A stretch of 37,806 nucleotides of DNA from an uncultured Gammaproteobacteria bacterium. Lineage in GTDB: Bacteria > Pseudomonadota > Gammaproteobacteria > SZUA-229. Below, one piece after another: positions 1,704-35,773 of the stretch. The position numbers and the translations under genes were made by a program. The first letter of the stretch is position 1. Each line of letters starts with the position of its first letter. The stretch covers positions 1 to 37,806 of the forward strand of contig CAJXZZ010000022.1 in the NCBI GenBank assembly GCA_913065105.1, written 5' to 3'. A model generated the notes under the pieces. The model saw only the letters and a list, made by a program, of their open reading frames with translations, was not told the DNA's origin and did not search any database.

Positions 1704-2837
1704 TTGACCACAGCTGTGCTAGCGCTTGAAGATGGGAGCTTGTTTTACGGCAAGTCCATTGGCGTTTCCGGTGAAACTATCGGTGAAGTGGTATTTAATA
1801 CGGCGATGACGGGTTATCAAGAAATCCTCACCGATCCTTCCTACAGTCAACAGATCGTTACTTTAACTTATCCCCATATTGGTAATGTCGGCACATGTGC
1901 TGGCGATGAAGAAGCTAATGGTGTGTTCGCCAGTGGTTTAGTTATTCGTGATAGTTCTATGATAATGAGCAACTGGCGTGCAGAGAAAAGTCTGCATGAT
2001 TACCTGGTTGAAAATAACACGGTTGCCATTGCTGATATTGATACCCGTCGTTTAACGCGAATACTGCGTGATAAAGGTGCCATGGGTGGCTGTATTCTGG
2101 CAGGTGATGCGATTAACGATAAGGACGTCATTGCAAAGGCTAAAGCGTTCGCTGGTCTCAAAGGCATGGATCTGGCGAAAGAGGTGACCACGGCTGAGTC
2201 CTACCAATGGACTGATAACGTTTGGGATCTAGCAACGAATCAACCACACGTAAACCCTGAGCAGCAATTTCATGTTGTGGCTTACGACTATGGTGTCAAA
2301 CGTAATATTCTACGCATGCTGGTCGAGCGCGGCTGCAAAGTAACCGTTGTACCAGCCAAAACACCGGCAAGTGACGTGTTAGCGATGAGCCCAGATGGTG
2401 TATTCCTATCGAATGGCCCAGGCGACCCGGAACCCTGTGATTATGCCATTGAAGCTATTCGACAAATCCTGGAAACCGAGTTGCCCGTGTTTGGTATTTG
2501 TTTAGGCCACCAGTTACTGGCTTTGGCTTGCGGCGCAAAAACTCTAAAAATGAAGTTTGGTCATCATGGTGCCAATCATCCAGTGCAAGATTTATCAAAC
2601 AAAAAAGTAATGATTACTAGTCAAAATCACGGTTTTGCCGTTGATGGTGATAGTTTGCCGGCTAACCTGGAGGCGACGCATCGCTCTCTGTTTGATCAGT
2701 CGCTACAAGGTATACATCGCACAGACAAACCCGCTTTCGGATTCCAGGGGCACCCTGAGGCGAGTCCGGGGCCACATGACATCGCGCCTGTATTTGATCA
2801 CTTTATCGACTTGATGGAGAAAAAGCTAAAAGATTGA
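1704..2837 (+). CDS. carA: Carbamoyl-phosphate synthase small subunit (glutaminase)
   Basis: CarA hydrolyses glutamine and passes ammonia through a tunnel to CarB for carbamoyl phosphate, the precursor of arginine and pyrimidines. The 377-residue protein has the N-terminal CarA domain ([17 protein letters not shown]) and a class I amidotransferase domain from about residue 190. The triad is visible: Cys266 in F-G-I-C-L-G-H-Q, His350 and Glu352 in G-H-P-E. Start: a TTG at 1704, preceded by GGAG with a 6-nt gap; the protein aligns from there without overhang. TTG starts are also known for other carA genes. A likely promoter lies at 1652-1679. It is separated from carB by a 489-base insert holding a small nuclease-like gene, so the two subunits must be expressed through or despite that insert. 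Confidence 0.97.
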
Positions 2838-2838
2838 A

Positions 2839-3317
2839 TTTTCCGCCAATAAACGCGAATGAACGCAAATGTTTTATATATGGAGATATATTATGGAGGA
2901 AACTATTTCGCAGCGAGTGATACGTTGTGCTTTTGATGTTAGTAATACATTGGGTGCAGGGTTTCTTGAGAAAGTCTATGAGAATGCTCTTTGTGTTGAG
3001 CTCGAAAAAAACGGATTAAGATTTCAGGCTCAGAGGCCTATTACTGTTAATTACAAAGGTTTTCAAGTTGGAGAGTACGTAGCTGATATTGTTGTTGAAG
3101 ATAAGCTACTGCTTGAGTTAAAAGCATTGACAGCTATTTGTAGTTCACACGATGCGCAAGTAATGAATTATTTAAAAGCAACAGATCTGTCTGTCGGTTT
3201 ATTGCTAAATTTTGGCAGACCAAAGTTAGGTATAAAACGAATAGTTTGGCAACATGATGAAACAGAAAAAATATAATTTGGTTTTATTCGCGTTCATTTG
3301 CGTGCATTTGCGGAAAA
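2839..3317 (+). mobile_element. Decamer-arm element carrying a GxxExxY gene, between carA and carB
   Basis: Two 32-bp arms in inverse orientation, 2839-2870 and 3286-3317, match at 27 of 32 positions. Each contains three 10-bp units: TTCCGCCAAT, AAACGCGAAT, GAACGCAAAT on the left and ATTCGCGTTC, ATTTGCGTGC, ATTTGCGGAA on the right. The single gene between them starts 22 bases after the left arm and stops 9 bases before the right arm, so it fills the element. The outer edges lie 1 base after the carA stop and 9 bases before carB. No target duplication is visible. Arms of the same kind recur at 7490, 18936/19053 and 35628/35742. Calling it mobile is inference from this dispersal; no known transposase is present. 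Confidence 0.62.
2893..3276 (+). CDS. GxxExxY family protein, PD-(D/E)XK nuclease-like
   Basis: This 127-residue protein carries the family signature Gly23-F-L-Glu26-K-V-Tyr29. It also shows the layout of a PD-(D/E)XK nuclease core with a RecB/Cas4-type third motif: Asp65, Glu75-L-Lys77 and Gln89-x3-Tyr93, with predicted strands between. A nuclease activity is therefore plausible but not proven for the family as far as I know. I chose ATG 2893 because GGAGA lies 6 nt upstream; the in-frame ATG at 2869 starts inside the repeat arm and has no ribosome site. A hand count gives 139 G+C in 384 bases (36%), below two carA stretches sampled (42% and 53%), which suggests a foreign origin. It interrupts carA-carB and is flanked by inverted decamer arms. 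Its partner, if any, is probably the arm DNA itself (inference). Confidence 0.85.
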
Positions 3318-3326
3318 ACAATTACT

Positions 3327-6300
3327 ATGCCTAAAAGAGAAGATATAAAAAGCGTTTTAATCATCGGTGCGGGTCCTATCGTTATCGGACAGGCCTGTGA
3401 GTTTGATTACTCTGGGGCGCAAGCATGTAAAGCGATTAAAGAAGAAGGTATCCGTGTCATCCTGGTGAATTCAAATCCGGCCACCATCATGACGGATCCT
3501 GAAATTGCCGACGCGACCTATATAGAGTCAATCACCTGGAAGACGGTTGCTGCGATTATCGAAAAAGAAAGACCGGATGTTCTGTTGCCGACCATGGGTG
3601 GTCAGACCGCGCTTAACTGTGCGCTTGATTTAGACCGCGAAGGTATTTTAGAAAAATTTGGCGTTGAGATGATCGGTGCCAGCAAAGATGCCATCGATAT
3701 GGCAGAAGATCGCGAGCGTTTCAAAATCGCCATGGAAGAACTCGGTCTGGATATGCCGCGTGCAGCGATAGCGCACAGCATGGAAGAAGCCTACCAGGTG
3801 CAGGCGCAAGTGGGTTACCCGACGGTTGTACGTCCATCTTTCACCATGGGTGGCAGCGGCGGCGGTATTGCTTATAACAAAGAAGAATTCGATGAAATCT
3901 GCCTTCGTGGCCTGGATCTATCGCCGGTAAGTGAGTTACTGGTTGAGGAATCTATCTGCGGTTGGAAAGAATACGAGATGGAAGTGGTGCGCGACAAAAA
4001 TGATAATTGCATCATTATCTGCTCGATCGAAAATCTCGATCCGATGGGTATTCACACGGGCGACTCAATAACCGTTGCACCAGCGCAGACGCTGACTGAT
4101 AAAGAGTATCAGCATATGCGCGACGCTTCGGTTGCGGTATTGCGCAAGATCGGCGTTGAGACTGGCGGTTCAAATGTACAGTTTGCGGTGAATCCAGAAA
4201 ACGGTCGTATGACCATCATCGAAATGAATCCACGTGTTTCACGTTCCTCAGCGCTTGCTTCTAAAGCAACCGGTTTCCCGATTGCAAAAATCGCTGCAAA
4301 GCTGGCAATCGGTTATACGCTTGACGAATTGCAAAATGAGATTACTGGTGGTGCCACACCAGCATCGTTTGAGCCGACGATCGATTACGTTGTCACAAAA
4401 ATTCCACGTTTCACTTTCGAAAAATTTCCGCAAGCTGAAAACCGCCTGACCACGCAGATGAAATCGGTCGGTGAGGTTATGGCTATCGGTCGTACTTTCC
4501 AGGAATCATTGCAAAAAGCGCTGCGTGGATTGGAAGTTGATATCGATGGTCTAAGCCCAGTGCTTGATCCTGAAATGGCTGAAGACGAAGTTGAGTCCTT
4601 CTTAAATCAGGAACTGAGTCTGGCTGGTGCAGATCGTCTGCTGTATGTCGGTGACGCTTACCGTCGCGGTTATTCAAACGAGAAAATGTTTAACCTGACC
4701 AAGATCGATCCGTGGTTTTTAGTTCAGTTAGAAGATTTAATAAAAGAAGAACTGGCTCTCAATGGTAGGGCGTTAGCGAGTATCACTAAAGAAGAGTTAT
4801 ATCAGCTAAAACGTAAAGGTTTTTCTGATAGCCGCCTGGCTGGATTGTTGAACATCGAACAAAAAGTGATGCGTGAATATCGTCATTCATTAGATATTCG
4901 TCCAGTCTACAAACGCGTTGATACCTGTGCGGCAGAATTTTCGACTTCGACCGCTTACATGTATTCTACCTATGAAGAAGAATGTGAAGCCGATGTTGAT
5001 GACCGCGAGAAAATCGTCGTTTTAGGCGGTGGTCCAAATCGTATCGGTCAGGGCATCGAGTTTGATTACTGCTGTGTGCATGCCGCATTTGCTATGCGTG
5101 ATGATGGTTATGAAACCATCATGATCAACTGTAATCCTGAAACGGTATCGACTGACTATGACACTTCAGACCGTTTATATTTTGAGCCCTTAACCTTAGA
5201 AGATGTGCTCGAAGTATTAGATAAAGAAAAACCAAAAGGCGTCATCGTGCAGTACGGTGGTCAGACACCGTTGAAACTCGCGCGTGACCTGGAAGCTGCA
5301 GGGGTGCCTGTTATTGGTACAACCCCTGACTGTATCGATCTGGCAGAAGACCGCGAGCGCTTCCAGCAGGTGATTAATGAACTGGGCCTGAAACAGCCGC
5401 CTAATCGTCTGGCAAGGTCGACTGAAGAAGCGGTTGCTGGCGCGGCAGAAATTGGTTTTCCACTGGTCGTGCGTCCGTCTTATGTATTGGGTGGCCGCGC
5501 CATGGAAATCGTTTACAACGAAACTGACCTCAAGTTCTACATGAAAAATGCAGTCAGCGTTTCTAATGATGCGCCTGTGTTGCTCGATCGTTTCCTCGAT
5601 GATGCGGTTGAAGTTGACGTCGACGCAATCTGTGACGGTGAAGATGTATTGATTGGCAGCATCATGGAGCATATCGAACAGGCGGGTGTGCACTCGGGTG
5701 ATTCTGCCTGTTCGCTACCGCCGTATTCATTGTCTGCCGGTGTGCAGGATCAGTTGCGTGAGCAAACGCGTCAATTAGCCTTAAAACTGGGCGTGGTGGG
5801 TTTAATGAATATCCAGTTTGCGATCCAGTTTAACGACACTGGTGAAAATATTTATCTGCTGGAAGTCAATCCACGTGCTTCGCGTACAGTTCCCTTTGTA
5901 TCAAAAGCGACCGGTGTGCCTTTAGCAAAAATTGCCGCACGTTGTATGGCGGGTAAATCATTGAAAGAGCAGGGTGTGACTAAAGAAGTGGTGCCAAAAA
6001 CATTTGCTGTGAAAGAATCTGTATTCCCGTTTGTTAAATTCCCTGGTGTGGATCCGCTGTTAGGTCCTGAGATGAAATCTACCGGCGAAGTTATGGGCGC
6101 TGGTGATACCTTTGGTATGGCATTTGCGAAAGCACAATTAGGCGCTGGAGTAGATCTGCCAACAAAAGGTCGAGTATTCATCAGCGTACGTGAAAGAGAT
6201 CGTGAGAATGCGGTATCACTTGGCCGTGAGTTAGTCGCTAAAGGGTTTAAACTGGTGGCGACCAGCGGAACCGGTAGGGCATTAGAGGCTGCAGGTATAA

Positions 6301-6575
6301 AATTTAAGCAGGTCAATAAAGTTTATGAAGGTCGTCCACATATCGTCGACATGATTAAAAATGGTGATATTGCGTTAATTATAAATACCACCGAAGGCAA
6401 GAAGGCGATTCAGGATTCATTTACTATTCGCGCCTCTGCATTGCAGCACAAGGTGAGTTACACTACGACCATCGCGGGTGCGAACGCGACCGTTTTAGCA
6501 CTGGATTATTTAGAAGTGAACTCAGTGACGCGATTACAGGATTTACACGAAGATATTAAAGAGGCTATAGCGTGA
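3327..6575 (+). CDS. carB: Carbamoyl-phosphate synthase large subunit
   Basis: CarB makes carbamoyl phosphate from bicarbonate, two ATP and the ammonia delivered by CarA. At 1082 residues it is close to the 1073 of E. coli. It has two homologous synthetase halves: the first opens with [19 protein letters not shown], the second at about residue 560 with [16 protein letters not shown]. Each has an ATP-grasp domain ([11 protein letters not shown] and [11 protein letters not shown]). The last 140 residues form the MGS-like allosteric domain (V-A-T-S-G-T-G). The ATG at 3327 has no good Shine-Dalgarno sequence; the only purine run upstream is the GCGGAAAA end of the repeat arm. The stop overlaps the greA start (GTGA), so greA is translationally coupled. 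Confidence 0.98.
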
Positions 6576-7417: not shown

Positions 7418-7489
7418 GCAGCAGTAGTTAAATATTTTTCACTGCGTTCAAAAAGACAGCAGTGTTAACATTATTTTTCATTCACTTTT

Positions 7490-7519
7490 ATTTGCGTTTA
7501 TTCGCGTTCATTTGCGGAT
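7490..7519 (+). repeat. Solo decamer arm before rlmE
   Basis: Three exact 10-bp units, ATTTGCGTTT, ATTCGCGTTC and ATTTGCGGAT, match the right-hand arms of the carA-carB and nuoF-nuoG elements. No inverted partner was found in the preceding 140 bases. The arm ends 12 nt before the rlmE ATG and supplies its only Shine-Dalgarno-like bases (GCGGA). Confidence 0.8.
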
Positions 7520-18926: not shown

Positions 18927-18935
18927 AAATGATTG

Positions 18936-19082
18936 TTCCGCAAATGAACGCAAATGAACGCAAATGTATTTTAGGTGGTTTCACTGAACGTGGAGTTGTG
19001 CGTCAAATATCGTATGTTTCATCTGTAAGTTCTGTAAAAAACAATATTAATTATTCGCGTTCATTTGCGTTCATTTGCGGAA
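18936..19082. mobile_element. Gene-less decamer-arm element between nuoF and nuoG
   Basis: The left arm at 18936-18965 (TTCCGCAAAT, GAACGCAAAT, GAACGCAAAT) and the right arm at 19053-19082 (ATTCGCGTTC, ATTTGCGTTC, ATTTGCGGAA) are inverted copies matching at 29 of 30 positions. The 87-base core has no gene. As RNA the arms would make a 30-bp stem in the middle of the nuo message. It matches the arms around the GxxExxY gene at 2839-3317, so it looks like a non-coding (MITE-like) member of that family. No target duplication was seen. Confidence 0.75.
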
Positions 19083-19094
19083 AATAAATTAGTT

Positions 19095-29244: not shown

Positions 29245-29328
29245 TTTTGCCACGAAGGACGCAAAGAGCGCGAATTAAAATTTTTTATTTTTAATAACTT
29301 TGCGTTATTTGCGTCCTTCGTGGCAAAA
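29245..29328. repeat. Perfect 21-bp inverted-repeat element after nuoN
   Basis: The 21 bases at 29245-29265 are exactly complementary to 29308-29328; both carry GCCACGAAGGACGCAAA. Inside, each arm goes on with CGC-containing units spaced about 9 bp. The 42-base centre is AT-rich. As RNA it would be a very stable hairpin followed by AAAAGCTTTTCTTCT, so it may act as a terminator for nuo. The CGCAAA core resembles that of the decamer arms elsewhere in the window. Confidence 0.75.
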
Positions 29329-35625: not shown

Positions 35626-35773
35626 TTCTTCGCAAATGAACGCGAATATACGCAAAAATTTTTAAAGCGAAAAAACAATCAGTCATAGATGGCTACAGAG
35701 AAACCTGTATTTATCTGTAATGAAAATTGTAATAAGTTTTTATTAGCGTGTACCTGCGTTCATTAACGGAAAA
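35626..35773. mobile_element. Diverged decamer-arm element between truB and rpsO
   Basis: The left side has CTTCGCAAAT, GAACGCGAAT and ATACGCAAAA (35628-35657); the right side ATTAGCGTGT, ACCTGCGTTC and ATTAACGGAA (35742-35771). They are inverted and keep the 10-bp phasing, with about 10 mismatches in 33. The total length of about 148 bases equals the nuoF-nuoG copy. Both copies share ATCTGTAA about 30 bases before the right arm and GGAAAATAAA at the right edge. The 84-base core has no gene. Confidence 0.62.

Follow-up and report, generated by a model that had tools for sequence, protein, structure and literature searches.

Closest to the locus described here is the RAYT system, in which a conserved nuclease gene is flanked by repeats, and single repeats and inverted pairs are spread in trans (PMC3116915). 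Iterated repeats in inverted pairs are also known with no protein linked to them: the 'class 2 global regulator binding sites' of Geobacter metallireducens are inverted pairs in which TCTCCGTS[Y] is repeated three times in tandem (PMC2700814), and GGGAATC heptamers form inverted pairs in Xanthomonas (PMC4692102). GxxExxY proteins are mentioned in the open literature in passing, for an RT neighbour; in that literature, in which few subscription journals are covered, no report linking them to repeats was found, and the arm words described below go unmentioned. The preliminary description of the present locus knew of no element of such make-up, and none was found in the open literature, so the pairing of GxxExxY genes with arms as a repeat-plus-nuclease system is apparently undescribed so far.

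The carA–carB element and its protein

The window, that is, the whole stretch of 37,806 nucleotides that was analysed, contains a compact element between carA and carB, composed as follows:

1704–2837, forward strand: carA, upstream neighbour (ORF translation; site variously occupied in relatives)
2839–2870, forward strand: left arm, three units of about 10 bp, CGCCAAT-CGCGAAT-CGCAAAT (inverted repeat, 27/32)
2893–3276, forward strand: GxxExxY/PDDEXK_3 gene, 127 aa (profile matches, AlphaFold, fold search)
3286–3317, reverse strand: right arm, units of the left arm, inverted
3327–6575, forward strand: carB, downstream neighbour (ORF translation; site variously occupied in relatives)

The identity of carA and carB was taken from the ORF translations and from the gene order kept in relatives. 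The preliminary description had reported inverted 32-bp arms of three 10-bp units each between these genes, packed tightly around a gene of low G+C content (36%), and the coordinates and computed values bear this out. The arms, 32 nt each, are complementary at 27/32 positions, and their unit is CGC(A/G/C)AAT followed by three bases; the gene, with a G+C content of 36.2% compared to 45.3% for the window, lies 22 and 9 bases away from them. An in-frame ATG at position 2869 represents a possible further start of the gene. The window holds three inverted repeats of at least 27/32 within 600 bp, versus none in each of 20 dinucleotide shuffles, and the two-unit arm pattern has 19 matches there versus 5.8 ± 2.3 expected.

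Profile searches clearly place the encoded protein in TIGR04256 (GxxExxY protein; 146.5 bits, cut-off 35) and in PF13366 (PDDEXK_3; 145.1 bits, cut-off 22), with the full model covered in both cases. The predicted catalytic set of the 127-aa protein comprises E26, D65, E75-x-K77 and Q89-x3-Y93. The motifs singled out earlier, namely these and G23-x2-E26-x2-Y29, turned out to be invariant or nearly so among 46 diverse proteins, where G21, G23, E26, Y29, D65, E75, Q89 and Y93 are invariant and K77 is conserved in at least 90%; in a 12-member set, all these motif residues, K77 included, are invariant. AlphaFold modelling predicted a PD-(D/E)XK fold (pLDDT 94.7, pTM 0.87), for which the fold search found the best match in Cas4 SSO0001 (PDB code 4ic1; Z-score 10.2, Foldseek E-value 9e-4); further matches include lambda exonuclease, AddAB and MGME1, Holliday junction resolvases lower in the list and some PD-(D/E)XK RNA endonucleases. 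No credible solved structure was found among the sequence relatives of the protein. The modelled structure and the motifs show a predicted nuclease of the PD-(D/E)XK superfamily, belonging to the Cas4/RecB/lambda-exonuclease branch; the earlier assignment to the RecB/Cas4 kind is consistent with a predicted fold nearest to Cas4 and lambda exonuclease. With the nuclease domains of Cas4, lambda exonuclease and AddB, the protein has in common the fold and the motif set D, ExK and QxxxY, but, unlike these, it stands alone as a domain of 127 aa, lacks the Fe-S cluster part and is encoded in a repeat-flanked locus.

The dN/dS values among relatives (0.03–0.16) indicate that the GxxExxY protein is under selection and kept functional. 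Stop-broken genes lie next to intact ones at several loci (L089, L097, L122, L142, L160; copies in genomes G019, G023 and G052), which points to turnover. A PADLOC search for known defence systems gave no match for the locus, and a search for a phage link revealed no GxxExxY relatives in 50,697 phage records and no confident PHROG.

Linkage of arms to GxxExxY genes and the arm word

GxxExxY genes are usually flanked by inverted, iterated arms. Linkage was assessed on 80 GxxExxY loci from a one-genome-per-species collection, 74 of them usable, with the score defined as the best local inverted match between the 150 bp upstream and the 150 bp downstream, and with 386 further ORFs from these loci as controls. 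A score of at least 14 was found for 51/74 GxxExxY loci (69%) versus 12/386 control ORFs (3.1%; Fisher p 5e-38), and a score of at least 20 for 49% versus 1.0% (Fisher p 2e-28); when flanks from different genomes were paired, these levels were reached in 11% and 2.4% of cases, respectively. About one third of the GxxExxY loci had no clear arms. The comparison put forward in the preliminary description, that of GxxExxY genes with other genes, thus finds arms to be commoner at the former (69% versus 3%). The arms found in Planctomycetota, Chloroflexota, Bacteroidota, Pseudomonadota and archaea are variants of one inward-pointing design, (A/T)CC-RCNRA(T/G)-NN-ACRCNRA(T/G)... Tandem arrays of ten or more units of the arm word, compared to three in the usual arms, were seen at G078:C1:232589-232701 and G129:C51:1255-1346.

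The arm word can be written as CRCNRA(T/G). The arm unit was readable in 112 loci, and the comparison of words with protein clades used the 103 loci whose word ends in T (T-type) or G (G-type), leaving out loci with unreadable arms and nine words ending in A or C. T-type words recur with a 10-bp period in 46/53 loci, and G-type words with an 8–9-bp period in 49/50. The preliminary description had likened the 10-bp unit to about one helical turn, which agrees with the T-type loci but is not general, since a large protein clade has 8–9-bp units; 'one helical turn' is part of the story at best. On the maximum-likelihood tree of the 103 proteins, the T/G label changes twice, one of the changes being a small switched clade (L084, L086), versus a mean of 34.5 changes for shuffled labels (0/500 as low). 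T-type loci occur in more than 12 phyla and G-type loci in about ten, and both codes, each around a protein of the matching clade, are found within one genome or contig (G012, G037, L134, L154). Position 5 of the word (A/G) tracks the protein tree as well (10 versus 28 changes), and position 4 showed no such tracking. Of the 16 protein columns that separate the two clades best, positions 51 and 18 are those where the switched clade departs from the T-clade residue in the direction of the G-clade; position 51 is Pro in 40/48 G-clade proteins and in both L084 and L086. Because the word tracks the clade of the protein rather than the host, the GxxExxY protein appears to be what recognises it, a putative recognition that the sequence comparison strongly supports; the co-variation of word and clade is strong support, and the strongest evidence, for the protein reading its arms, short of proof of contact.

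Gene-less arms and the occupation of the same sites

The other two inverted repeats of at least 27/32 in the window are gene-less arm pairs (18934–19084 and 29245–29328), and pattern searches and comparisons with relatives added a single arm and a decayed pair:

7480–7518, reverse strand: single arm, no gene, upstream of rlmE in the yhbY–rlmE gap (pattern search; relatives)
18934–18965, forward strand: left arm of a gene-less T-type pair, nuoF–nuoG gap (inverted-repeat search; empty in some relatives)
19053–19084, reverse strand: right arm of the same pair, nuoF–nuoG gap (inverted-repeat search; cross-species comparison)
29245–29276, forward strand: gene-less G-type pair downstream of nuoN, left arm, CACGAAG-GA-CGCAAAG (28/32)
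29297–29328, reverse strand: gene-less G-type pair downstream of nuoN, right arm (inverted-repeat search)
35629–35657, forward strand: truB–rpsO gap, decayed pair with no gene, left arm (pattern search; relatives)
35740–35768, reverse strand: truB–rpsO gap, right arm of that pair, decayed (3 mismatches; relatives)

The word of the pair at 29245–29328 is CACGAAGGACGCAAAG, unlike the T-type copies in the window, with which this G-type pair, GCCACGAAGGACGCAAAGAGCGCGAA, shares the stretch. An Rfam scan of the window found tRNAs only. The source genome (3.06 Mb in 147 contigs) contains one GxxExxY gene and about ten further arm sites; nothing is shared between the interiors of its gene-less copies.

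Dispersed arms depend on the GxxExxY gene. In a survey of 54 genomes of the family, the strict three-unit pattern was counted, a reversed-pattern control was subtracted and the gene was searched for. Among family genomes at least 90% complete, those with the gene (n = 12) have 3–190 net matches and those without it (n = 11) have 0–5 (p 5e-5, with genomes counted as independent), the medians being 21.5 and 0. Matches reach about 200 per genome, at many sites with unrelated flanks. Five genomes below that completeness have 24–73 net matches and no detected gene (G003, G016, G022, G014, G008); their assemblies may lack the gene, or it may have been lost. Among 249 genomes sampled from the phylum, only gene carriers reach four or more matches, simple repeats aside. 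Another enzyme, an HUH transposase or an IS, might have spread the arms with the GxxExxY gene as a passenger, and Y1_Tnp is indeed common (42/54 family genomes), but its presence does not track arm abundance and the arm code tracks the GxxExxY tree, so that this explanation seems extremely unlikely. The HUH transposase as driver was rejected, its presence being unlinked to the arms: G040, G043, G044 and G045 have Y1_Tnp and no arms, and G028 has arms and no Y1_Tnp.

Searches of plasmids revealed seven diverged GxxExxY matches and one Thiodictyon plasmid with arms of the CGCAAAT code, amounting to two pairs and three singles in the 98 kb examined; viral contigs were searched for a long ACACAGATGA array and none was found. 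On plasmid pTs485 of Candidatus Thiodictyon syntrophicum (L319, L320), the CGCAAAT word occurs at 17 places and no GxxExxY match was found, which suggests that a protein encoded elsewhere in the cell acts on these arms in trans.

Comparison of orthologous gaps shows the same places empty, filled or differently worded. The empty carA–carB sites anticipated in the preliminary description do exist: among 30 family loci, 18 have gene and arms (some partial at a contig end), one has arms only (G041) and 11 are empty. None of the three outcomes named in that description as refuting came about, and its interpretation is supported in part. The nuoF–nuoG gap carries a gene-less pair, with two different words, in nine genomes and is empty in four (G017, G015, G009, G004); for the T-type pair there, compared across five species, the arms are 96–98% identical and the interior 60%, versus a 56% baseline for unrelated sequences of the same make-up. 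A single arm with alike flanks and differing words occupies the gapA–pgk gap in five genomes (CGCAAAT in the source genome, G000, and in G003, CACAGAT in G009, G-type in G006); five genomes lack it. The single arm of the yhbY–rlmE gap is also present in G005 and absent at that place in G003 and G015, and the gap after cbbQ holds, at the same place, T-type pairs (source genome, G009, G011) or G-type pairs (G013, G014). Around cbbQ in the source genome, two gene-less pairs lie inside 1 kb (G000:C72:13248-14260; L008, L009). Each arm of the carA–carB element of G004 carries one and the same insert of 40 bp, the two copies being inverted relative to each other. These re-worded orthologous arms, the kept arms with drifting interior and the mirrored G004 insert imply concerted rewriting or retention of arms.

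A GC-rich repeat of about 40–50 bp (e.g., GACGTGCA...GCGCATGGAGCGCAGG...) interrupts arms at four loci (L063, which is the G004 carA–carB element, L076, L294 and L308); perhaps it is another repeat family nesting there. Outside some elements lies an arm remnant with a word other than that of the element (L066/L027 at carA–carB of G002; L057 in G005), as though one element had displaced another there.

Repeated occupation of the same gaps makes homing-like replacement the main rival explanation: at fixed positions between genes, the nuclease would cut alleles that lack the element or carry another code, repair would copy the element in, and the gene-less pairs would be decayed homing cassettes. 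It fits the repeated occupation of sites such as carA–carB (18/30 genomes) and the only partial agreement of the carA–carB gene tree with that of the hosts (Mantel r 0.33, p 0.006), with clear swaps in G011, G012 and G002, but copying at fixed sites does not sit well with up to about 200 arm matches per genome at many sites with unrelated flanks, where the arm is conserved and the flank is not; on the whole, it is considered unlikely. Filled and empty sites compared at the carA–carB, nuoF–nuoG, gapA–pgk, cbbQ, yhbY–rlmE and truB–rpsO gaps revealed no consistent target-site duplication, only short ATGA-like repeats, and no excision product, transposition intermediate or recent copy, so movement rests on presence and absence between species.

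Conservation of arms at orthologous sites might also be expected if GxxExxY were a DNA-binding regulator and the arms its dispersed operator or nucleoid sites, kept for host regulation; similar paired tandem sites of Geobacter have been called putative global regulator binding sites (PMC2700814). This explanation, weaker than homing, is quite improbable, given that the catalytic residues are invariant or nearly so and that sites are missing from close relatives with no apparent pattern.

In 23S rRNA intervening sequences, a stem loops out the intervening part of the transcript, and the arms could similarly pair into a stem in the transcript of an operon, with the gene or spacer looped out and the protein acting on RNA. 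Complementary arms that change together, the location of most copies between co-directional genes, and the RNA endonucleases among the PD-(D/E)XK fold relatives speak for this. However, partnerless single arms persist at gapA–pgk and yhbY–rlmE, one copy in the source genome lies between convergent genes (L011), and a stem needs neither iterated units nor co-variation with the protein clade; an RNA-level element, likewise weaker than homing, is therefore very doubtful.

Likeness to known systems and biological meaning

The interpretation preferred in the present study is that the gene and its arms constitute the master copy of a repeat-plus-nuclease system resembling REP/REPIN–RAYT, built on an unrelated nuclease; this is judged to be probable. 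As in REP/REPIN–RAYT, a usually low-copy, conserved nuclease gene lies between inverted repeats (PMC3116915), dispersed pairs and singles of the same repeat are found in the genome, mostly in intergenic positions, and the repeat type is matched to the protein lineage, as seen from the two changes on the 103-protein tree. Unlike RAYT, which is an HUH (Y1) tyrosine nuclease, the GxxExxY protein has a predicted PD-(D/E)XK fold, and its arms are three or more iterated 8–10-bp words, whereas a REP is one palindrome. Membership in REP–RAYT fails on the enzyme, and the likeness in working, drawn by analogy, stands; proposed in the preliminary description with an unrelated fold in mind, this likeness fits the dispersed gene-less pairs and singles and is strengthened by the co-variation of protein and code.

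The nuclease would act in trans on the arms, either on hairpins or cruciforms of paired arms or on single-stranded arms, and arms and pairs would be copied to, or rewritten at, intergenic sites by repair or replication. The outcome would be scattered gene-less pairs and single arms, as proposed for RAYT with REPs and REPINs. The re-coding in situ and the conserved arms with drifting interior might come from repeated conversion or from selection for recognisable arms. Cutting and copying of arms, and their mobility, are thus what we infer for the GxxExxY protein.

The presence of short copies that lack the gene but have inverted ends, next to a copy that contains it, is reminiscent of MITEs, but, unlike in MITEs with an autonomous DDE transposon, no DDE transposase and no consistent target duplication were seen. 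A simple MITE copied whole would not give gene-less copies that share arms only and not the interior.

The 23S rRNA intervening sequences and S23 elements also have a small gene between inverted arms and no transposase, although the GxxExxY protein is unrelated to the S23 four-helix bundle and does not belong to S23. For comparison, S23 loci (23S_rRNA_IVP, PF05635) were taken from the same phylum (L219–L248). An inverted-arm score of at least 14 was found for 74% of free-standing S23 genes, and their arms are iterated with a 7-bp period, e.g., (GTAGGCA)n and GTGAGTA (examples in L220, L223 and L227). Strong lag-7 repetition occurs in 24/54 S23 flanks and lag-10 repetition in 0/54, whereas GxxExxY flanks show lag 10 in 21/148 and lag 7 in none; two unrelated small proteins therefore each have their own repeat period. 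To judge from their sequences, the Geobacter 'class 2' sites may be G-type arms, and the Xanthomonas GGGAATC pairs may be of the S23 kind. The evidence leans slightly towards an independent invention of a REP–RAYT-like system in bacteria and archaea, in which a PD-(D/E)XK nuclease would read the word, keep or rewrite the arms and co-evolve with the word, with S23 and its 7-bp arms as a second, parallel class.

The pairing offers a testable role for a very widespread and unexplained family of small proteins, and a possible origin for the iterated inverted repeats of many genomes, perhaps including the Geobacter and Xanthomonas pairs. The protein–DNA word code is legible from the sequence alone, so specificity should be predictable. 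If true, the GxxExxY system would represent a second solution, reached with an unrelated enzyme, to the persistence of a non-mobile nuclease gene with dispersed short repeats.
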